Assembly: GCF_003610295.1 (NCBI RefSeq)
Contig: NZ_RAPV01000001.1
Coordinates: 3,658,001-3,722,000 of the forward strand
DNA: 64,000 nt
From: Paraburkholderia sp. BL23I1N1
Lineage (GTDB): Bacteria; Pseudomonadota; Gammaproteobacteria; Burkholderiales; Burkholderiaceae
Direction: 5' to 3'
Shown: positions 5,926 through 64,000 of the stretch, piece by piece
Layout of the letters: the number at the start of each line of letters is the position of its first letter
Numbering within the stretch: the stretch's first letter is position 1
The notes under the pieces: model-generated
The model's database searches: none
What the model saw: the letters and a program-made list of their open reading frames with translations, nothing else
What the model was told of the DNA's origin: nothing
Program-made: the position numbers and the translations under genes

Positions 5926-7510
5926 ATCGTCCGCCTCTTGCACGTGCGGCAAGAAGCGGACGCGTAAACGCTCGATGCGAGGGCTAAGAGTCCGCGCGGC
6001 AGACAGAATTTGAGCCTCCGGAGTTGACGCCAGATCGGGCGGCGTCAACTGCGATTGCAGTTTTGCCCGCCAGTGCGCGCAAAAATGGTTTGCCCGGGGG
6101 CGAAATCAGGCAAACTTGCCCCCTTCCGGGCTTACGCAAGTTTCATTTTCGACATTCTGCGCAGGTTCAGCGCCACGCAGACGAGCTTCCACTCGGCCTG
6201 AGCCTTGGCCAGTCCGCGCATGCTGAATTGTCGAAATCCGAGAACGCTTTTTACCCAGGCATTCGGCGGTTCGGACAGCCATTTGCGCTTTCGATAGGCC
6301 GCCTGAGTTTGCGCAGAAGTAAACTTTTCTGCCATCGCGGCGCACAGCGGGCGCTTCAGGGCATCGACCCTCACATCTTTCTTGCCCTCGCGTCCGGGCG
6401 CCACAATCAGCTCGGCGGGATGCTCGCGCAATTGCTCGAACGTCGCTTCCGACCGGTAGCCCGCGTCGGCAAGGACTTGCCTGGGATTGGCGCCAGCGTC
6501 ACGCAGCACGGCAGCAAGAACGCCTGGCAACTGGCCGCTGTCGGCGGCACTGTTACCCAGTTCGGCCGCGACGATGATGTGGGCCGTGTCGTCGACGGCA
6601 GCCTGGGCATTGTAGGAATAGTCGAAGCCGCCGCCGGCGTGCTTCATGATCCGGCTTTCCGGGTCAGTAAAATTCTCCTGGGCGTCGGGCTTGGGCTCGC
6701 CGAACCTGTACTTGAAGCGCGACTTCTTTTTCGGCTTGTCGCCGCCGTCCGGCGGCGTGTCGTCGTCGCTACGACCACGCGCGATATCGGCCTGGCGCTG
6801 GCGCTCTTCCAGACGCGCACGCGCAGCACGGATGACCGCAAGCCGGTCCTCGCGCCGCGTGATCTCGGCCGGAATATCGAGTTCAGGCTCGTTCTTCTCA
6901 GCGTCATCGGCCACTTTCGCTTTTGCCAGCAGCGCATCGATCTGTTCTTTCAGTTCAAGCTCGGCTTTCTTCATCCGGTCGTAGCTCATCGCCTTGTGGC
7001 GCGAGGCATTGGCCTTGATCTTCGTGCCGTCAACGGCAATCGTCCCGAGCCTGATCAGTCCGCACTCCCTGGCCAGTTTCACCACCTGCACAAACAGGTC
7101 CGACAGTTCTTTGAGGTGAAAGGCGCGGAAGTCGCACAGCGTCCGGTGCGCCGGATAGTTGCCCGCCGCCAGGACCCGGAACGCGACATCCTCATGCAGC
7201 TTCCTGGCCAGCTTGCGCGACGAGAACACGCCGGTCGCATAGCCGTACACGAGCACCTTCACCATCATCGCCGGATGAAAGGGCTGGTTGCGCTGACCAC
7301 CGCCGGCATACCGCGCATGGAAAGCGGAGAGGTCGAGTGAGTCCACCGTGTCGCTGATGTAGTAGGCAAGGTGCCCTTCGGGCAGCCAGTCTTGCAGCGC
7401 GTGGGGCAGCAACATCTGCTGCTGCGGCTCGTAGGGGAGATAGCTTGTTGTCATCTGCTAACAACGTTTACCCTGCCCGACCGGATGACATCAGACTTCT
7501 GCCGCGCACG
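5924..7510 (-). mobile_element. IS1182-family insertion sequence
   Basis: The span is bounded on the left by the point where adhesin similarity stops (about 5923) and on the right by the gabD stop codon (7514-7516). It contains one full-length transposase gene. Weak partial similarity exists between CGTGCGGCAAGAAG near 5941 and the complement of the sequence near 7500 (CGTGCGCGGCAGAAG), a possible imperfect terminal repeat. No target duplication is evident, so the ends are uncertain. Between 5926 and 6131 a minus-strand frame reads plausibly as protein (for example PRIERLRVRFLPHVQEADDA) but belongs to no family I recognise. Confidence 0.55.
6132..7454 (-). CDS. IS1182-family transposase, 440 aa
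   Basis: A DDE transposase with the IS1182 layout: an N-terminal segment (LPEGHLAYYISDTVDSLDLS), a region with HPAMMVKVLVYGYATGVFSS, the first acidic residue in IAVDGTKIKANAS, a long charged insertion (about residues 200-260), the second in VLADAGYRSE, and a C-terminal SEPPNAWVKSVLGFRQFSMR block with the expected Glu. Length and motifs look complete, so it may be active. The gene lies between a truncated adhesin and the 3' end of gabD, and probably caused the adhesin truncation. Confidence 0.92.
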   Translation of the reverse strand: MTTSYLPYEPQQQMLLPHALQDWLPEGHLAYYISDTVDSLDLSAFHARYAGGGQRNQPFHPAMMVKVLVYGYATGVFSSRKLARKLHEDVAFRVLAAGNYPAHRTLCDFRAFHLKELSDLFVQVVKLARECGLIRLGTIAVDGTKIKANASRHKAMSYDRMKKAELELKEQIDALLAKAKVADDAEKNEPELDIPAEITRREDRLAVIRAARARLEERQRQADIARGRSDDDTPPDGGDKPKKKSRFKYRFGEPKPDAQENFTDPESRIMKHAGGGFDYSYNAQAAVDDTAHIIVAAELGNSAADSGQLPGVLAAVLRDAGANPRQVLADAGYRSEATFEQLREHPAELIVAPGREGKKDVRVDALKRPLCAAMAEKFTSAQTQAAYRKRKWLSEPPNAWVKSVLGFRQFSMRGLAKAQAEWKLVCVALNLRRMSKMKLA

Positions 7511-7513
7511 CTC

Positions 7514-8953
7514 CTAGCGGCCGAGGCCGCCCATCATCATGTACTTCAGTTCGGTGTATTCATCGAGCCCGTACTTCGAGCCTTCGCGGCCGAGACCCGA
7601 TTGTTTGACGCCGCCGAACGGTGCGACTTCGGTCGACACAATGCCCTCGTTGATGCCGACCATACCGCTCTCCAGCGCCTCGGCGACGCGCCATGCGCGG
7701 GCCAGGTCGCGCGTGTAGAAGTACGCGGAAAGGCCGAACGGCGTGTCGTTTGCCGCGGCAATGGCTTCCTCTTCGGACTTGAAGCGGAAACAGGCTGCCA
7801 CCGGGCCGAAGGTTTCTTCCTCCGCGATCAACATCGACTTCGACGCATCGGCCAGCACAGTCGGCTCATAGAACGTGCCGCCGAGCGCGTGCGGCTTTCC
7901 GCCGGTCAATACCTTCGCGCCCTTTTGCAGCGCGTCGGCGACGTGCGTTTCCACCTTCTTCAGCGCTGCCTGGTTGATCAGCGGACCTTGCTCGACCTCG
8001 CCTTGCAGCGCATTACCGACACGCATTTTCCGGACGGCCTGTGTCAGTGCCTGCGTGAACGCATCGTAAATTCCGTCCTGCACGTAGAAACGGTTCACGC
8101 ACACACAGGTCTGCCCGGTGTTGCGAAACTTCGAAGCCATTGCACCCTGCACGGCAGCGTCGATGTCCGCATCGTCGAACACGATGAACGGTGCATTGCC
8201 GCCGAGCTCCAGAGACAGCTTCTTCAGCGTATCCGCGGACTGCTTCGCGAGCAGCTTGCCGACGCGCGTCGAGCCGGTGAACGAGAGCTTGCGCACCACG
8301 TCCGATTCCGTCATCACGGCGCCGATCGCCACTGCGTCGCCGGAGACGATGTTGAACACGCCCGGTGGAATGCCGGCCTGTTCCGCCAGCACCGCCAATG
8401 CGAAGGCGGACAACGGCGTTTCTTCGGAGGGCTTGAGCACCATCGTGCAACCCGCTGCGAGCGCCGGACCGGCCTTGCGCGTGATCATGGCGAGCGGGAA
8501 GTTCCACGGCGTGATGGCCGCGACCACGCCGACCGGCTCGCGCGTCACGATGATCTTCGCGTTCGGATTGGGGCTCGGGATCACGTCGCCGTAGCTGCGC
8601 TTCGCTTCCTCGGCAAACCATTCGAAGAAGCTCGCCGCATAGCCCACTTCGCCGCGCGCTTCGGCAAGCGGCTTGCCTTGCTCGAGCGTCATCAGTTCAG
8701 CGAGCGCCTCGCGGTTCTCGAGCATCAATTCGCCCCAGCGTTTAACGCGCGCGCCGCGCTCCTTGGCGGTCAGCTTCCGCCACGCCGGATAAGCGCGTTC
8801 GGCCGCAGCAATGGCTTGCGTCGTTTCCGCCGAGCCGCCTTTCGCGACCTGAGCGATGACCTCTCCCGTCGCCGGGTTCAGAACAGGGTACGTGCTTGCG
8901 CTTCCAACCCATTCGCCGGCAATGTAGTGCCCTGTGCGAAGAAGTTCCTTCAT
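7514..8953 (-). CDS. gabD: NAD(P)+-dependent succinate-semialdehyde dehydrogenase
   Basis: Oxidises succinic semialdehyde to succinate, the last step of GABA degradation; related aldehydes are possible substrates. Aldehyde dehydrogenase motifs are intact: TPWNFPLAMITRKAGPALAA, the glycine motif FTGSTRVGKLL, the catalytic Glu in LELGGNAPF and the catalytic Cys in GQTCVCVNRFYVQDGIYD, the GabD-specific form. I chose ATG 8953 (MKELLRTGHYIAGEW, 479 aa), preceded by GGAGAAGGCAGC. The longer frame to 9049 would overlap the upstream gene. The start overlaps the stop of the aldo/keto reductase gene by ATGA, so the two are translationally coupled. The 3' end abuts the IS1182-type element. Confidence 0.92.
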   Translation of the reverse strand: MKELLRTGHYIAGEWVGSASTYPVLNPATGEVIAQVAKGGSAETTQAIAAAERAYPAWRKLTAKERGARVKRWGELMLENREALAELMTLEQGKPLAEARGEVGYAASFFEWFAEEAKRSYGDVIPSPNPNAKIIVTREPVGVVAAITPWNFPLAMITRKAGPALAAGCTMVLKPSEETPLSAFALAVLAEQAGIPPGVFNIVSGDAVAIGAVMTESDVVRKLSFTGSTRVGKLLAKQSADTLKKLSLELGGNAPFIVFDDADIDAAVQGAMASKFRNTGQTCVCVNRFYVQDGIYDAFTQALTQAVRKMRVGNALQGEVEQGPLINQAALKKVETHVADALQKGAKVLTGGKPHALGGTFYEPTVLADASKSMLIAEEETFGPVAACFRFKSEEEAIAAANDTPFGLSAYFYTRDLARAWRVAEALESGMVGINEGIVSTEVAPFGGVKQSGLGREGSKYGLDEYTELKYMMMGGLGR

Positions 8954-57069: not shown

Positions 57070-57816
57070 TCAAACGCCGGGCGCAACCATCGCGCCGCGC
57101 TCGGCCGCCCCGATCTCGCCGTGCGGTACGAACACATAGCCGCGTCCCCATACCGTCTGAACAAAGCGTGGCTCGGAAGGATCGATCTCGATCAGCCGCC
57201 GCAACCGCCAGATCGAGACGTCGAGACTGCGCCCTTGATGCAGCACGCTATTGCCGCGCAACTTCTCGTTGAGTTGCACGCGCGTGAGCACGGTCATCGC
57301 ATGATTGACGAAGATTTTCAGCAACGCGAACTCCGAGCTGCGCAGCGCGAAATGCTCGTTGTCGCGGCGCAATTCGCGCGCGGAGAAATTCAGCTCGCAA
57401 CGTCCGAAGCGATACGGCGGCCGCGTTTCAGGTGCGCCTGGCGCGAGCGCGCCGCGCCGGCGCAACAACACGCGAATGCGGGCGAGCAGTTCAGCGGGAT
57501 CGGCGGGCTTGCTCATGAAATCGTCGGCGCCGAGTTCGAGACCAATCACGCGATCAATCGCCTTGCTGCTCGCCGACAGCAAGATCACCGGCACGTCGTT
57601 GCCGCTCATGCGCAAGTCGCGCAAGACAGCGAGGCCGTCGCCGTGCGGTGCGGAGATATCGAGTACCAGCAACGCCGGCCGCTCCATCTCGATCACGTGC
57701 TTCAGCCCCGCGCAATGCGGACGTGCGGACACGCCGCAGCCCTGTCCGCGTAAAGATTCGCCCACCACGGCCGTTAAGCCGGCGTCGGCGCCAACAAAAA
57801 GAACGTGCTGACTCAT
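57070..57816 (-). CDS. OmpR-family response regulator, 248 aa
   Basis: An N-terminal receiver domain has the phospho-Asp in LLVLDISAPHGDGLAVL and the conserved Lys in FMSKPADP; the acidic pocket is reduced (FVGADAG in place of a DD pair). The C-terminal winged helix carries LRSSEFALLKIFVNHAMTVL and RSLDVSIWRLRRLIEIDPSE with the OmpR-type recognition helix and IQTVWGRGY-like end. ATG 57816 (MSQHVLFVGADAG) is preferred to the 57909 start. No sensor kinase gene is adjacent. The region upstream is the motif array. Confidence 0.88.
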   Translation of the reverse strand: MSQHVLFVGADAGLTAVVGESLRGQGCGVSARPHCAGLKHVIEMERPALLVLDISAPHGDGLAVLRDLRMSGNDVPVILLSASSKAIDRVIGLELGADDFMSKPADPAELLARIRVLLRRRGALAPGAPETRPPYRFGRCELNFSARELRRDNEHFALRSSEFALLKIFVNHAMTVLTRVQLNEKLRGNSVLHQGRSLDVSIWRLRRLIEIDPSEPRFVQTVWGRGYVFVPHGEIGAAERGAMVAPGV

Positions 57817-58036
57817 CCAACTGATTCCAGGAGACGATCGGTTTTCAGAGACAGGCGATGGCTTGCAGGAATAGCAAAGCCGCTGACCGCTTGTCGTCCG
57901 CGTCGCCATCTTCCCTGTAGGCGGATGTTCTCAAAACGCGGAACAGCCCCCAAGGTTGGCAATTTCTTCCCAACTCTTTCAACGCGGAACGTGATATGGG
58001 ATTGCTCGTGACGTCACCGCACGATGCGCGCGCCTG

Positions 58037-58529: not shown

Positions 58530-58895
58530 CTAGCTCGCCAGCTTGCGGAACGTTTCCAGCACCGCGTCGCCCTTGAACGGCTTGACGATCCAGCCTTTGA
58601 CGCCCGCCGCCTTGCCGCGCTCTTTCATCGCCGGGCTGCTCTCGGTCGTCAGCATGATGACGTTGACGGTCGTGTTCGCGAGTTCGCCGCGAATCTTCTC
58701 GACCATCGTCAGGCCGTCCATGTTCGGCATGTTGACGTCGCTGATCACCAGCTTGATGCCGGGGCTGGCCTTCAGTTTGGCGAGGCCGTCCTTACCGTCC
58801 ACCGCCGTATCGACGTCCAGACCGTTCTTCTTCAGAAAACCGGCCACTTCGTCGCGCACGGTGCTCGAGTCATCCACCACCAGAATTTTCGACAT
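58530..58895 (-). CDS. CheY-like single-domain response regulator, 121 aa
   Basis: A stand-alone receiver domain: acidic pair in ILVVDDSSTV, phospho-Asp in LVISDVNMPNMDGLTM, Thr in IMLTTESS and Lys in WIVKPFKGD. All active residues are present, so it should be phosphorylated. ATG 58895 follows ATAGGAAAAAAT; the frame to 59072 runs into the upstream gene. It is the last gene of the CheA-like/MCP-like/CheX cluster and probably its output or phosphate sink. It has no DNA-binding or enzymatic output domain. Confidence 0.92.
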   Translation of the reverse strand: MSKILVVDDSSTVRDEVAGFLKKNGLDVDTAVDGKDGLAKLKASPGIKLVISDVNMPNMDGLTMVEKIRGELANTTVNVIMLTTESSPAMKERGKAAGVKGWIVKPFKGDAVLETFRKLAS

Positions 58896-58915
58896 ATTTT
58901 TTCCTATGACAACAC

Positions 58916-59887
58916 TTAGAACAGATCCAGTTCGCCCGCTTCGACCATCGCGCCGACATCGTCCGCGATTTCCCTGAAGTCTTCCGGCGACCAGCTCAGA
59001 CTGAACACAAAACGTTGATGCAGCTTGACCGAACGGCCCGACTGCGCGTCCGTCAGCGCGTACATGAAACACAGCTGCGGATTGCCGCTGCCGAACGAGA
59101 TGTACTTATGCTTGTGATTCACCAGCAGCGGCACCTGCACCTGGCTGCGCGTCCAGGCGTCCGCATCGCCGACATAGCGGTTCTTGAACGAGCCCCAGAT
59201 CAGATTCGTCACTTCACCCAGCACGCCGTTCAGATCGCGGAAGTTTGCTTCGCTATCCTCTTCGTTGTCGATCATCCGATAGCGATCGAGCAATTCGAGA
59301 ATCGGCGCCTCTTCCGCCTGCATCATCATGTAGCCGCGGCACCACGCGCTTTCCAGCGGAATCAGGCTGAACACCTCGCCGAAGATGATCCGGTCGCGCA
59401 CGATATACGGCGTGTCGCACGTGATGGTCAGGTCCTTGAACACGTCGCCGAGAATCGCCTGCGTCATGTCCGCGATGCCTCGCACCAACGCGTTCGGATA
59501 ATCCAGACTGAAAATGTATTCGTCGATCACCTTGCGCAAGGGCGCCATATCGTGCGCGACGTAGGCCGCGCAGACCACGCGGCGCAAACTCTCGGGCAAA
59601 CCGTCGAGGCTCGGATCGTCATCGCGCCGCATGATGATCGGCAACTCGGGACGCACCGCGTTGATCCTGATCGCGATCTCAGCGCTCGCTTCGGCTGAAC
59701 CGCCGTAGCTTTCTGCGAATAGAACGGCGCCCAGATCGATGTTCGAGCGCAGCACCGACTGCAAACGGCTCTTGCCGACTTTCACGCCGACCAGATTGTG
59801 CTCGTCGCAGAAGCGTTTCAGCGCCTCTTTATGCACCGGGCAGTCGTCCAGCACCAGGACCTTGCTGACCGGTTTGTTCATGTTCAT
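58916..59887 (-). CDS. Pseudo-receiver domain fused to a CheX-like phosphatase domain, 323 aa
   Basis: Residues 1-130 look like a receiver fold (KVLVLDDCPVHKEALKRFCD) but the phospho-Asp position reads AVLFAESYGG and no conserved Lys is evident, so it is probably not phosphorylated. Residues 140-320 form a CheX/CheC-type domain with an ExxN phosphatase motif in LNGVLGEVTNLIWGSFKN. CheX proteins dephosphorylate CheY-P. The gene ends 20 bp before the CheY gene. A second CheX-domain gene lies just upstream, 44 bp away. Confidence 0.8.
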   Translation of the reverse strand: MNMNKPVSKVLVLDDCPVHKEALKRFCDEHNLVGVKVGKSRLQSVLRSNIDLGAVLFAESYGGSAEASAEIAIRINAVRPELPIIMRRDDDPSLDGLPESLRRVVCAAYVAHDMAPLRKVIDEYIFSLDYPNALVRGIADMTQAILGDVFKDLTITCDTPYIVRDRIIFGEVFSLIPLESAWCRGYMMMQAEEAPILELLDRYRMIDNEEDSEANFRDLNGVLGEVTNLIWGSFKNRYVGDADAWTRSQVQVPLLVNHKHKYISFGSGNPQLCFMYALTDAQSGRSVKLHQRFVFSLSWSPEDFREIADDVGAMVEAGELDLF

Positions 59888-59931
59888 TTCGGATTCCTGC
59901 TCACTTCGTCTATCGATGTCATGATCATCAC

Positions 59932-60471
59932 TCAGAACAGCTCCAGCTCACCGCTGGTTTCTTCGATTACGCTCGTGTCCGCCACGAAGTCGATCGGTGC
60001 ATGCGCGCACACGCATATCGTCGCGGCAAACGGCACGGAACCGTTAAGCGTGATCGAATACGACGACAGCAAACCCGGCTTCAATTCCGGCAGATGTTCC
60101 AGACAACGCGCGCTCAACACATAAGGCGTCGACATGCCGAGGTCCGGAAAATAATGCAGCAGTTCCTGATTCATCGCGCCGCAGCACAGATTGCAGATTT
60201 CCAGAAACACTTCCTGGAAGGGACGCTCATCGTCCTCTTTCAGGTAGTAGCCACGAGTGCTGTCGTTTTCGTCGAAGTGCAGAATCAGCAGCAGTCTGAA
60301 CACGATAGACGAAATGGTCAGCACGACCACCTGGGTGTCCTTCGTTGCGCCCGTACCAGCCTCGGCGAGCGAGGCGATCTCGCACGTGTCGCCGGAATCC
60401 AGTGGCAGGCGTGCCTGCACCGCCTTGCGGAAAATGCGTTCGAAGCTGTCCTTCGCGTTGCCCGTGATCAC
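59932..60471 (-). CDS. CheX-like chemotaxis phosphatase, 179 aa
   Basis: A stand-alone CheX/CheC-type domain protein with an ExxN motif in FQEVFLEICNLCCGAMNQEL. The correct start is the GTG at 60471, which overlaps the stop of the MCP-like gene (GTGA); the longer frame to 60900 would run antiparallel through that gene. So the two are translationally coupled. Together with the REC-CheX fusion it makes two phosphatase-type proteins for one CheY. Confidence 0.8.
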   Translation of the reverse strand: MITGNAKDSFERIFRKAVQARLPLDSGDTCEIASLAEAGTGATKDTQVVVLTISSIVFRLLLILHFDENDSTRGYYLKEDDERPFQEVFLEICNLCCGAMNQELLHYFPDLGMSTPYVLSARCLEHLPELKPGLLSSYSITLNGSVPFAATICVCAHAPIDFVADTSVIEETSGELELF

Positions 60472-61202
60472 ATCGGCACCTGGTGCAGCTTCGAGTGAAA
60501 CTGGTTGGCGAGCGATTCGACGCTGGAAAGCGACGCCGCGATCATTTTGCCGCCGGCCTGAATGTCCTGGAAGGTGGAGGTGGTGGTCAGGTCGTTGCGG
60601 TGCAGGCTGTCGCGATAGCTCTTCGACAATTCCTCGGAACGCGCGGCGAGCGCCCGGACCTCGCTGGCCACCACCGCGAAGCCGCGTCCTGCCGGCCCCG
60701 CGCGCGCGGCCTCGATCGAGGCATTCAGCGACACGATCACCACATGGCGGACAATCGACGACAGCTCCTGATTCTTCGCGTGCATGTCGTGGTTCTGCGT
60801 CATCAGCGAGATCATCTGCTCGTGCCAACGCTCGAATGTCGCGCCAAGGCTTTTCAGACGCGCGGCTTCGCCGGCGATCTGATGCGCGTGATGCGCCCAC
60901 TGGTCTTTGTCGTCGGTCGCGGCTTTCAGCGTTGCGCGCAGTTCGTCGACGCTGGCCGATTGCTGCCTCAGCTCCTCACGCAACTGCGCGGCCAACGCTT
61001 CCATCTCTTGCGCCGCCTGTTCACGTTCGCGGATCGCGTCACCGTGGTCCGCGTGTTCCGCCGAGAACGCTTCGATCCGCGCATCCGCTTCGGCGCGCAA
61101 GCGTGCCGTCAGCCTCGTGCTTTGCAACTTGTGCGCGACAAATGCCAGCAGCGCGGTCACCGCGCTGCCTGCCACCGCCGCCAATACGTACTGTTGAATC
61201 AC
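60468..61202 (-). CDS. Minimal MCP-like signalling protein, 244 aa
   Basis: One N-terminal membrane anchor (YVLAAVAGSAVTALLAFVAH), then a long coiled coil (REREQAAQEMEALAAQLREE) and a short receptor tip-like segment IVIVSLNASIEAARAGPAGR followed by GFAVVASEVRALAARSEEL. It is much shorter than normal receptors (usually about 540 aa), has no ligand-binding domain, no HAMP and no methylation helices of normal length. It may act as a scaffold or partner of the CheA-like kinase encoded upstream. Starts 54 bp after that gene and overlaps the CheX gene by GTGA. Confidence 0.85.
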   Translation of the reverse strand: MIQQYVLAAVAGSAVTALLAFVAHKLQSTRLTARLRAEADARIEAFSAEHADHGDAIREREQAAQEMEALAAQLREELRQQSASVDELRATLKAATDDKDQWAHHAHQIAGEAARLKSLGATFERWHEQMISLMTQNHDMHAKNQELSSIVRHVVIVSLNASIEAARAGPAGRGFAVVASEVRALAARSEELSKSYRDSLHRNDLTTTSTFQDIQAGGKMIAASLSSVESLANQFHSKLHQVPM

Positions 61203-61256
61203 AACCTATCCTTCCGAAATCCGTCGCGAACGCGTCAATCAGCGTTCGGCCGACGT

Positions 61257-63647
61257 TCAATCCGCCATCGCGTCGAGTTGCAGTTCGCCGGCGTCGCCAC
61301 GCGCTTCCACACCCAGCGTATCGACGGCGACGCTATCCGGCAGGCAGACGATCGTCTGGAACTGGCGGAACGACGCGCCCTTGTGATCGTCGGTGAAGCG
61401 CAGTTCGATGCGGCCCTTCTCACGCTTGAGGAAATCGCGCACAGCGTCCATGCCCACGCCACGGCCCGACACTTCCGTGACTGTTTCAGCAGTTGAGAAG
61501 CCCGGCCTGAAAATGAATTCGGCGATGGCTTCGTCGCTCAGTTGTTCGTCGCTGCCGATCCAGCCGCGCTCGATGGCAATGCCGCGAATCCGTTCGAGCG
61601 CGAGGCCACGGCCGTCGTCGCTGAGCGTGATCTGCAGCGCGTGGTTGTCGACACCCACTTCGATATCGATCGTGCCTGCCGGTGCCTTGCCGTGCGCGCT
61701 GCGCGCGTCGGCTGCTTCGATACCGTGATCCATCGAATTGCGCAGCAGATGCATGAACACGTTGCCGAGCGTGCCGCCTGCCTGGCCGCGCAGACGGTAG
61801 CCGTTATCGGCGATCCGCACGGTCGGCGCCGGCTTGCCCAGTTCCTGCGCGAGCGAAGGCAGCGAGTCCAGTACGCCGGAGAGCGCATCGCGCACGCTTT
61901 CGCTGCCTAGCGCGAGCAAGGTTCGGCGCATCGCATCGCGCATCGACTGCAATTCGTGAAGCTCGCCAGCGTTCGTCTTGTCCAGCATGCTCAGGGTCTG
62001 CTGAATCTGGTCCTTTTCGACCATCACGTAGTGACCCGCATTGCCGGCGTTATTCGAGCCGGCTTTGGTCTTGCGGCCGAGGCTCTGTTCGTTGATCCGG
62101 GCGTAGCTCTCGATCGCCTCGCGCACGCGCGTCAGCTCCTGCATGAGGTGTTCCTGGTCCCACGAGCGGTCCGCGTCCGGCTGGCGCAGTTCGTCATAGC
62201 TCTTTTCGGTTTCGTGGACGACGTTAGTCAGGTGCGCCAGGTTATAGGTCCGCGCATTGCCCTTGATGGTGTGCATATTGCGGAACAGCTCGGCGATTGC
62301 CGCATGGTCCGCTTCCGAGTGCTTGCGGATGATGCGCTCGTTCTCGCTGACAAAGCCCGCGGAGCTTTCGATGAAGTGATGGAACTTCTCTTCGCTCACC
62401 GCAAGAATCTCGCCGATCATGTCGAGACGGCGGCGCTGTTCGCTGGCTTCCGCAGCGAGCTTGCGCAGTTCGGTGACGTCGCGCACGCACAGCATCAAAC
62501 GCAAGATCACGTCGTTTTCGTCGGTGATCGCCGACCAGCTGAGGTCGAGAATCTTCACGCGGCCATCGGGCATGCGCTTCGTAATTTCGCTGACCAGCAG
62601 GTGCTGATTGAACGCGAAGTTGATGCAGTCTTCGCCGAGGCACGCATGCGCGGCCGCATCGACTTGCGAGAGCACGTCCGAGCCGAGATCGGTATCCGAG
62701 AACACCAGGTCCATCAGACCGCGCCCGGCGATGTCTTTCGTTTCGAAGATGTCTTCCAGATACGCCGAGTATTCCGAGTGGATCACGGCGCCGTCGACCA
62801 CCGTCAAAATACCTTGCTGCATGTTCTGCAACATGGCCTGAATGTCGGCGGTCTTCTGCTTGAGTTGCGCCGAGCTTTCCTGAATCTTTTCGATCATGCC
62901 GTTGAACGCGACGATCGAATGGCCGATCTCATCCAGCCGGCCCACCGGCACGCGGCGCGTGAAATCCTGGCTCGACGCGATCTCGCTCATCATGGCTTGC
63001 ATGCGGCTCAGCGGACGGGTGATCTGCCGGTAAAGCAGCGTGCCGATGAACGTCAGCAGAATGATCGCGATACCGGTGACGGCGGCGATAGCCGTCGTGG
63101 TGGTGGCGAGCGTGGCGTTCAGCGCGGTGATCGCTTCGTCTTTCTGACGGTTCTTCTCGACGCGCAGCGTTTCGACGATGCCTTCGAGTTCGTCGCGATA
63201 CTGCGCGACGTTGGCGAACAGATACGCTTGCGCGAGTTCGTTCTTGCCGTCGGCCTTCATTTTGGCCGTCTCGGTGATCGCGGAGAAGTAGTTCTCGAGG
63301 CTCTCGTTCGCCTGGGAGACGAGGCCTTGCTGCGCGTGACTCGCGGCATCTTTGCCCTGCAGCGCGAGGGCCTGTTGCAACGAGGCCTTTTTCTTCTTCA
63401 GTTCGTCCTGCGCCTGGGAGACCATATTGGCGTCCGGCGCGTAGACCAGTGTCATGGTCGCGAGCTGGACGTCTTTGACCTGCGAGACGAGGTCGGCGGA
63501 AGCCAGCGCGCTGGGAACGACGCCTTCGGTCACCTTGCGCACTTCGCCCGCGCTGCCGCGCGTTTGATACACCGCGTAGCCACCGATCGCCGACAAGGCG
63601 ACGAACATCAAAACAACCAATAGTGTGATGCGATGACGGATAGTCAT
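61257..63647 (-). CDS. Membrane-bound CheA-like sensor kinase (4HB-HAMP-PAS-Hpt-HATPase), 796 aa
   Basis: Order of domains: membrane helix (ITLLVVLMFVALSAIGGYAV), four-helix-bundle periplasmic sensor (residues 30-185), second helix (IAAVTGIAIILLTFIGTLLY), HAMP, PAS (about 265-390, MQQGILTVVDGAVIHSEYSA), Hpt with the phospho-His in LFRNMHTIKGNARTYNLAHL, then a CheA-type ATPase with N-box MHLLRNSMDHGIEAADARS, G1 LSDDGRGL and G2 SGRGVGMDAVRDFL. It lacks the CheW-like P5 domain of true CheA, so it cannot join classical receptor arrays in the usual way. First gene of the five-gene operon. ATG 63647. Confidence 0.9.
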   Translation of the reverse strand: MTIRHRITLLVVLMFVALSAIGGYAVYQTRGSAGEVRKVTEGVVPSALASADLVSQVKDVQLATMTLVYAPDANMVSQAQDELKKKKASLQQALALQGKDAASHAQQGLVSQANESLENYFSAITETAKMKADGKNELAQAYLFANVAQYRDELEGIVETLRVEKNRQKDEAITALNATLATTTTAIAAVTGIAIILLTFIGTLLYRQITRPLSRMQAMMSEIASSQDFTRRVPVGRLDEIGHSIVAFNGMIEKIQESSAQLKQKTADIQAMLQNMQQGILTVVDGAVIHSEYSAYLEDIFETKDIAGRGLMDLVFSDTDLGSDVLSQVDAAAHACLGEDCINFAFNQHLLVSEITKRMPDGRVKILDLSWSAITDENDVILRLMLCVRDVTELRKLAAEASEQRRRLDMIGEILAVSEEKFHHFIESSAGFVSENERIIRKHSEADHAAIAELFRNMHTIKGNARTYNLAHLTNVVHETEKSYDELRQPDADRSWDQEHLMQELTRVREAIESYARINEQSLGRKTKAGSNNAGNAGHYVMVEKDQIQQTLSMLDKTNAGELHELQSMRDAMRRTLLALGSESVRDALSGVLDSLPSLAQELGKPAPTVRIADNGYRLRGQAGGTLGNVFMHLLRNSMDHGIEAADARSAHGKAPAGTIDIEVGVDNHALQITLSDDGRGLALERIRGIAIERGWIGSDEQLSDEAIAEFIFRPGFSTAETVTEVSGRGVGMDAVRDFLKREKGRIELRFTDDHKGASFRQFQTIVCLPDSVAVDTLGVEARGDAGELQLDAMAD

Positions 63648-64000
63648 GTGAAACCCCCGAGGGTATGGCCTTCGCGTCAGCCCCTCGATGGGAGCAGCGC
63701 GTTTTTTGCAAATTTTGGGTCAAGCTTGCAGCGCTGCCGAGTATTGCCGACGCATATTACCGAGCGATGACGACGGGGTTTTTGACCACGTTTCGAGGGC
63801 TAAATATTCTTCTAAAGTTTTCGATTTTTAGGCCGTTAATTTAGGCCCGTTTAATTGCGCACTGCGAATTGCGCGTTGCGTTAACCCGCGCCGCGAATTG
63901 AACGGCGAATATTCTGCGCCAGACGCGTCAGCGGATCGACGGAAGATGCTTCGACGCTTCACGTAAAGTAAGCGGCGACATGATGTCCCGCGAAGCGGAA
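63648..64000. other. Upstream region of the CheA-like operon, window end
   Basis: About 350 bp. The first 120 bp presumably carry the operon promoter; no convincing sigma-28 or sigma-54 site was found. 63770-63850 is AT-rich. Near the end, a short minus-strand frame (FRFAGHHVAAYFT then stop at about 63959) could be the tail of a neighbouring gene, and a plus-strand ATG near 63980 could start one. Neither can be supported within the window. Confidence 0.4.

Follow-up and report, generated by a model that had tools for sequence, protein, structure and literature searches.

In a stretch of 64,000 nucleotides of the Paraburkholderia sp. BL23I1N1 genome (contig NZ_RAPV01000001.1, positions 3,658,001 to 3,722,000; the whole stretch is called the window here, and coordinates are counted within it unless stated otherwise), we analysed a predicted operon of five genes, hereafter the module. 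In order, these encode a membrane sensor kinase related to CheA, a small protein related to methyl-accepting chemotaxis proteins (mini-MCP), a small CheX-type protein, a second CheX-type protein fused to a receiver-like domain, and a CheY-type response regulator. Domain content, conserved catalytic residues and gene neighbourhood suggest that the module is probably a self-contained chemosensory-type phosphorelay that dispenses with CheW, is controlled by two CheX proteins and, in many lineages, would be linked to phosphate. The original prediction, made from the letters of the DNA alone, had proposed a relay of this composition. Its interpretation is partly supported: it holds as regards the missing CheW domain, the catalytic CheX residues and the conservation of synteny, and is not supported as regards a working independence from CheW or a non-flagellar role. 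Three features are new with respect to that prediction: a Pho-box-like element, a sigma-28-like sequence and a C-terminal peptide shared by both CheX proteins. As for its remark that it knew of no named system of such a composition, no description of the operon was found in openly licensed PMC papers, as far as the portions available of them go.

The five genes are all encoded on the minus strand between positions 58530 and 63647, tightly spaced as predicted, and the reported GTGA overlap is real: the stop codon of the mini-MCP gene overlaps the GTG start of the small CheX gene at 60468-60471 (ATGTGA). Median intergenic gaps across 92 loci, the present one included, were 30.5, -4, 32 and 27.5 bases. 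Sequence sets obtained in different fetches overlap in species, and thus the loci behind these medians, like the C-terminal sequences counted below, are not independent of each other. The window comes from a genome of 9.1 Mb in four contigs, and relatives were collected by matches to the fusion protein. A dataset with one genome per species yielded 304 loci, the best 80 of which were read and are called named loci. In a family sample the protein matched in 37 of 150 genomes, and 20 of these 37 stretches, own genome included, were fetched. Matches were found in 14 of the 349 genomes of an order sample at E 0.001 (12 of them strong), in 6 of 398 genomes of a phylum sample (one weak) and in 4 of 369 genomes of a class sample, the last two including the own genome and genomes found earlier. 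Matches in PLSDB had no annotation beneath them.

Presence of the five genes was judged by tblastn, and their order and strand by intact open reading frames (ORFs). All five were present in 20/20 family stretches, in 78/80 named loci and in 108 of the 113 stretches checked, the exceptions being L065, L070, L074, L110 and L148. Order and strand were intact in 18/20 family, 74/80 named and 6/12 distant stretches, gene order being changed in three of the distant ones. The loci that failed the strict ORF check were L042 and L043, where a stop falls within the matched stretch (in L042 the open fusion frame starts past it); L092, L105, L108 and L131, where a stop interrupts the tblastn match of the MCP gene; L110 and L148, which lack genes; and the distant L062 (stop in the match), L070 and L074. 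In L070 the operon reaches the end of the stretch read. These results bear out the expectation of conserved synteny in other genomes, and the recurrence of the gene set across Burkholderiaceae and other betaproteobacteria rules out chance or an assembly artefact. Named carriers among the best 80 of 304 loci belong to Paraburkholderia, Burkholderia, Caballeronia, Trinickia, Pandoraea, Noviherbaspirillum and Propionivibrio, and uncultured ones to Sterolibacterium, Dechloromonas, Rhodocyclaceae, Gallionellales and Nitrosomonadales; within the same set the closest named relatives of the fusion protein, at 97%, are those of Paraburkholderia elongata and P. haematera. P. xenovorans LB400 also carries the operon (L095).

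The genes conserved in 16 compared loci include no CheW, CheR or CheB, in agreement with the predicted absence of all three from the operon. No CheW match was found in or near the operon, and six CheW domains are encoded elsewhere in the genome. An ordinary che cluster is present as well, in which the gene for a CheY-type receiver lies next to CheZ. To look for an adjoining output gene, ORFs of at least 100 amino acids from the 16 loci were clustered; besides the module and shadow ORFs, a single family emerged, present in 3 loci only.

The kinase has hydrophobic stretches at residues 1-29 and 178-207, a four-helix-bundle (4HB) sensor at 1-161, a HAMP domain at 204-257, an Hpt domain at 437-510 and a CheA-type P3/P4 ATPase near its C-terminus. 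Pfam recognised 4HB_MCP_1, HAMP, Hpt (9e-7) and HATPase_c above cut-off, as anticipated for this architecture, and a PAS domain at 268-391 below cut-off (E=0.02). A profile built from 15 aligned kinases had 11 PDB matches at E<=1e-5. Ten of these are CheA chains covering P3-P4 (profile positions 542-752 of 779, E 8.4e-40 to 8.6e-33), and the eleventh, 6ff6 (BRIC1), covers the Hpt region. The kinase resembles CheA, a class II histidine kinase, in an Hpt domain (P1) with an HxxKG motif and in P3 and P4 homologous to solved CheA structures. The invariant His459 of the Hpt motif is the candidate phospho-acceptor, phosphorylation being the role that we take this motif to have. The kinase differs from CheA in possessing its own membrane sensor, HAMP and PAS, and in lacking P2 and CheW/P5. 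The Pfam scan of the window kinase found no CheW/P5 domain, as predicted, the kinases of 5 relatives scanned had no CheW domain either, and the 15 aligned kinases terminate shortly past P4. Hpt and HATPase were retained in 5/5 of those relatives, while their sensors vary: PAS only in L075, 4HB-HAMP-GAF in L066, 4HB-HAMP in L061 and none recognised in L060 and L068. The available portion of a 2023 survey reports a CheW domain in 100% of its CheA sequences and uses HATPase plus CheW to distinguish CheA (PMC10782961). By that definition, which needs CheW, the module kinase lies outside CheA, although it is expected to act in the manner of a CheA. Likewise, the canonical chemosensory classes (F, Tfp, ACF) have CheA together with CheW in the gene cluster, in contrast to the cluster described here, which has no CheW.

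The mini-MCP matches MCPsignal (1.8e-16) and 13 solved MCP-type chains. It consists of a single N-terminal hydrophobic stretch (residues 4-24), a coiled coil and an MCP hairpin tip, which agrees with the predicted single anchor and tip-only receptor. Within its 244 residues there is no ligand-binding domain and no full return arm, and the C-terminal arm is short, distinctive and conserved (TFQDIQAGGKMI). The tip keeps the receptor-tip motifs NAxxEAARAG and GRGFxxVAxEVRxLA. The mini-MCP of L075 has FELDF as its C-terminus, similar to the CheX tails described below.

The expectation of two CheX-type proteins, one of them fused to a receiver devoid of its Asp, is supported for the CheX part, as the ExxN pair is kept in both. 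E91xxN94 of the small protein is invariant in 56 aligned sequences and E225xxN228 of the fusion in 42. According to the available text of PMC3035606, enzymes of the CheC/CheX/FliY family use an Asn and an acidic side chain at the active site of CheY. The CheX domain of the fusion (residues 173-274) scores above the Pfam cut-off (1.7e-11) and its profile matches solved CheX/CheC-like chains; the small protein remains below cut-off (E=0.0083), and its profile matches that of the fusion in a region that spans ExxN and the tail (P=1.8e-4, with a probability of 49%). Pfam does not detect a receiver in the N-terminal part of the fusion (residues ~1-113), which lacks a phospho-Asp. The profile of this part matches the module CheY profile over 25 columns, beta1-alpha1 (P=3.2e-6, probability 88%), and it is likely a degenerate receiver. 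One genus (g11) has lost most of it: in each of its 11 matching genomes the match starts only at residue 93-127. In Pandoraea terrae (L107) the N-terminal part is whole.

Both CheX proteins end in nearly the same peptide, GELELF in the small protein and GELDLF in the fusion. The tail of the small protein followed G-x-[LMI]-E-[LMF]-F in 110/110 sequences read and that of the fusion followed G-x-L-[ED]-[LMF]-F in 109/110, the remaining one having an extra Lys. In dereplicated alignments the columns G, E and F of the former and G, L and F of the latter are invariant. Within the own genome, E-L-[DE]-L-F followed by a stop occurs in these two genes only, and the reversed pattern, taken as a control, has a single occurrence. 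The shared tail is probably a docking tag, and more than any other feature it hints at a single binding partner for the two CheX proteins. In CheZ, docking to CheY is achieved by the C-terminal peptide, and the CheZ of this genome ends in DDLLASLGF; by analogy, the CheX tails may dock the module CheY. Compared with the CheX/CheC/FliY family, with which it shares the ExxN pair, the module is distinguished by having two divergent CheX-type proteins, one with a dead receiver and both with this private C-terminal peptide.

The CheY protein is intact, as predicted, with a conserved phospho-acceptor D53, and is the most conserved member of the module (mean column identity of 92% in 16 sequences). 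It is 43% identical to the canonical CheY of the same genome, from which it differs in the alpha4 region.

We then considered the region upstream of the kinase gene. The upstream set comprised 107 module loci (two more were too short), which dereplication at 80% identity of the kinases reduced to 32, and the controls were regions upstream of mechanical ORFs (>=200 aa, six frames), many of which are no real promoters. Module upstream regions share GTCAT-N6-GT(A/C)A(C/T), a direct repeat with an 11-base period that resembles a PhoB box. The strict pattern GT[CA]A[CT]-N6-GT[CA]A[CT] occurred in 81/107 module upstream regions (18/32 dereplicated), compared to 7/1178 control ORF upstream regions and 2/2140 block shuffles, an enrichment with a rough Fisher P of ~5e-26. 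At L120 four half-sites stand in register. Some pstS-type genes carry the same half-sites: one of the three pstS-like genes of the own genome has two such repeats, and the pstS of L061 has one. At this locus, genes for a phosphate-binding-type protein, two permeases and an ABC ATPase, a cluster that we take to be PstSCAB, lie 2.9 kb from the module. Pho boxes have also been predicted before olsB genes in the group, as stated in the portion available of PMC7814305. Taken together, the Pho-box-like element suggests a phosphate-linked relay in many lineages.

The same intergenic region holds a sequence of the sigma-28 (FliA) type that points away from the operon. With the pattern TAAAGTTT-N10-12-GCCGATAA, at most two mismatches and a search range of 600 bases, it was found pointing away in 66/107 module upstream regions and toward the kinase in one (L115). 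Elsewhere in the loci (1.11 Mb, both strands) the pattern had five matches, all of them one homologous site. One match with three mismatches precedes a gene of the own genome that is presumably motA-like. Among the 9 loci read, neither a gene nor an RNA that follows the outward-pointing sequence was shared. This sequence may hint at a connection with the flagellar regulon. The features described so far are located in Table 1.

Table 1. Position of the module genes and associated sequence features in the window
Feature	Position	Strand	Basis or remark
Sensor kinase, 796 aa	61257..63647	-	Pfam, profile alignment, hydrophobicity
His459 codon, Hpt motif MHTIKGNAR	62271..62273	-	His invariant in 15 aligned sequences
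Mini-MCP, 244 aa, GTG start	60468..61202	-	Pfam, alignment, hydrophobicity
Small CheX-like protein, 179 aa, GTG start	59932..60471	-	Alignment, weak Pfam match
C-terminal ELELF codons and stop, small CheX	59932..59949	-	
Fusion of degenerate receiver (likely) and CheX, 323 aa	58916..59887	-	Pfam, profiles
C-terminal ELDLF codons and stop, fusion	58916..58933	-	
CheY-type response regulator, 121 aa	58530..58895	-	D53 at 58737-58739
Pho-box-like direct repeat GTCAT-N6-GTAAT	63756..63771	-	11-base period; starts 124 bases upstream of kinase ATG
-10-like AATACT	63740-63745	-	10 bases past the Pho-box-like repeat
Sigma-28 (FliA)-type promoter sequence TAAAGTTT-N11-GCCGTTAA	63813..63839	+	Points away from operon

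A few further observations concern the gene neighbourhood. L065 (9270-10241) and L076 (8897-9871) hold paralogues of the fusion gene with no tblastn match to other module genes in the stretch, the one of L065 ending in GELEFF. The fusion gene of L046 (8973-9927) was matched as two pieces in different frames. In the distant genome of L075, a gene with a STAS domain and a second MCP gene follow the operon CheY gene (6470-7960). In the window, an OmpR-type response regulator (receiver and Trans_reg_C) is encoded on the minus strand at 57070-57909, ~0.6 kb from the operon.

Several results weigh against a phosphate-linked relay free of CheW. The strict repeat is missing from 26/107 upstream regions; 12 of these hold a version with one mismatch, 11 at a like distance, and such a version is also present in 76/1195 controls. 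No Pho box even with one mismatch was found in 14/107 loci (L037, L060, L064, L066, L068, L069, L075, L115, L117, L127, L128, L130, L148 and L152), and Pho control is thus no property of the whole family. Against the E. coli PhoB consensus, the box in the window scores 10/14, a value that 98/1178 controls also reach. Of the other two pstS-like genes of the own genome, which show neither the strict pattern nor a good score, one is preceded by a related sequence in which one half-site deviates and the other by nothing worth naming. According to the part available of PMC8222739, the flagellar and chemotaxis genes of Herbaspirillum seropedicae, a species that may or may not carry the operon, went up at high phosphate, as did phoB, which does not favour a simple link between low phosphate and motility. 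The sigma-28-type sequence is present in only 8/32 dereplicated loci, all in or near Burkholderia sensu lato, and the fetched flagellar stretches of the own genome hold matches with three mismatches only. As to the gene set, L074 (G1081) shows the four other genes and no kinase within 19 kb, L148 has neither MCP nor small CheX, and in L110 (Caballeronia sordidicola) the fusion gene is accompanied only by pieces of the neighbouring genes, so that this copy appears to be decaying. Finally, CheW was present in 32/32 module genomes tested, a result that bears on independence from CheW. FliM and CheW were searched for in 32 of the 49 module genomes found across the family, order, phylum and class samples, G1081 with its kinase-less locus L074 being one of the 32.

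With these points considered, a self-contained relay would operate as follows. The kinase would sense through its own periplasmic 4HB domain and HAMP/PAS, and its ATPase would phosphorylate His459 of its own Hpt domain. As the kinase has no P2 domain for docking, the phosphoryl group would then be handed straight to Asp53 of the adjacent CheY. Both CheX proteins, whose catalytic residues are conserved, would dephosphorylate CheY-P via ExxN, their GELELF and GELDLF tails docking a shared partner, most simply CheY. The MCP hairpin, with its single transmembrane segment, may scaffold the kinase or link it to receptor arrays, and the dead receiver on the second CheX, lost in one genus, could have a regulatory function or act as an adaptor. 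PhoB would switch on the operon at low phosphate in Burkholderiaceae and several other lineages, and the relay would consequently act during phosphate starvation. A wider proposal is that the module is an undescribed class of pathway, free of CheW and controlled by PhoB, in which the sensors of a P1-P3-P4 kinase can be exchanged, two CheX phosphatases are paralogues with a common CheY-docking tail, and phosphate starvation together with a periplasmic cue makes CheY-P reset motility; as a whole, we regard it as doubtful. The protein bound by CheY-P would be encoded outside the operon, and control of motility or of cyclic di-GMP (c-di-GMP) are our best guesses for its function.

One possibility, which we take seriously while holding it for less than even, is that CheY-P of the module acts on the flagellar motor or on its brake, the operon adding a phosphate-starvation input to swimming. 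FliM was found in 32/32 module genomes, compared to 238/349 genomes in the order sample, and in 12/12 of the strong module genomes of that sample (P=0.009 without allowing for kinship, a weak association). The idea that the system is possibly not for flagella is hence not borne out, these counts leaning, weakly, the opposite way. The single-domain nature of CheY and the sigma-28-type sequence in the intergenic region are also in line with a flagellar output. However, FliM co-occurrence is weak as evidence, that sequence faces the operon in one locus only and is infrequent after dereplication, and the divergence of the module CheY from the canonical one, alpha4 included, argues against it.

A c-di-GMP output, in which CheY-P binds a diguanylate cyclase and inhibits or activates it, appears rather unlikely. 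The precedent is PdcC/PdcB/PdcA of B. thailandensis, that is, a receiver, a CheC/CheX phosphatase and a PAS-GGDEF protein, which, in the available text of PMC9899790, shows that a Burkholderia receiver with a CheC/CheX-type phosphatase can control a diguanylate cyclase. Like PdcABC, the module would place a receiver protein under a CheC/CheX-type phosphatase; PdcABC as described there has a GGDEF protein and neither kinase nor MCP, whereas the conserved set of the module has no GGDEF gene. A cluster resembling pdcABC (receiver, CheC-family protein and GGDEF) lies ~27 kb from the operon in the own genome (C1:3749003-3751179; L177 7004-9180). Its CheC-family protein ends in DELLSSL and gave no profile match to the CheX of the fusion, in a comparison of low power that used a single sequence.

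It is unlikely that the module is an accessory of ordinary chemoreceptor arrays, its mini-MCP recruiting cellular CheW and placing the kinase in them, such that the relay is not free of CheW in practice. The tip motifs kept by the mini-MCP and the presence of CheW in all module genomes tested are compatible with such a role, but the kinase has no P5 with which to bind receptor or CheW, and the residues directly before the mini-MCP tip differ from those of an MCP of the own genome. That the module is what is left of an ordinary chemosensory operon in decay, as the missing CheW, CheR and CheB, the dead receiver and the remnant copy in Caballeronia sordidicola might suggest, is very improbable; this reading was rejected, as catalytic residues, CheY and the gene set are conserved over many genera.

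A self-contained, CheW-less relay also bears comparison with Flm of Comamonas, a Tfp-class chemosensory pathway that controls biofilm, according to the portion available of PMC6391922. As far as that text goes, Flm resembles the module in its chemosensory-type kinase, MCP and CheY-like proteins, in a role other than chemotaxis, and differs from it in having a CheW-like adaptor, FlmC, in place of which the module has CheX proteins.

If the proposed reading is true, chemosensory phosphorelays do not all need the CheW/P5 coupling that the survey, in its available portion, ascribes to every CheA (PMC10782961), and such systems would escape any search that identifies CheA by HATPase plus CheW. A simple candidate docking motif for response-regulator phosphatases, open to testing, is offered by the tail common to both CheX proteins. 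In the bacteria that carry the operon, the Pho-box-like and sigma-28-like sequences suggest that phosphate starvation and motile behaviour may be linked.

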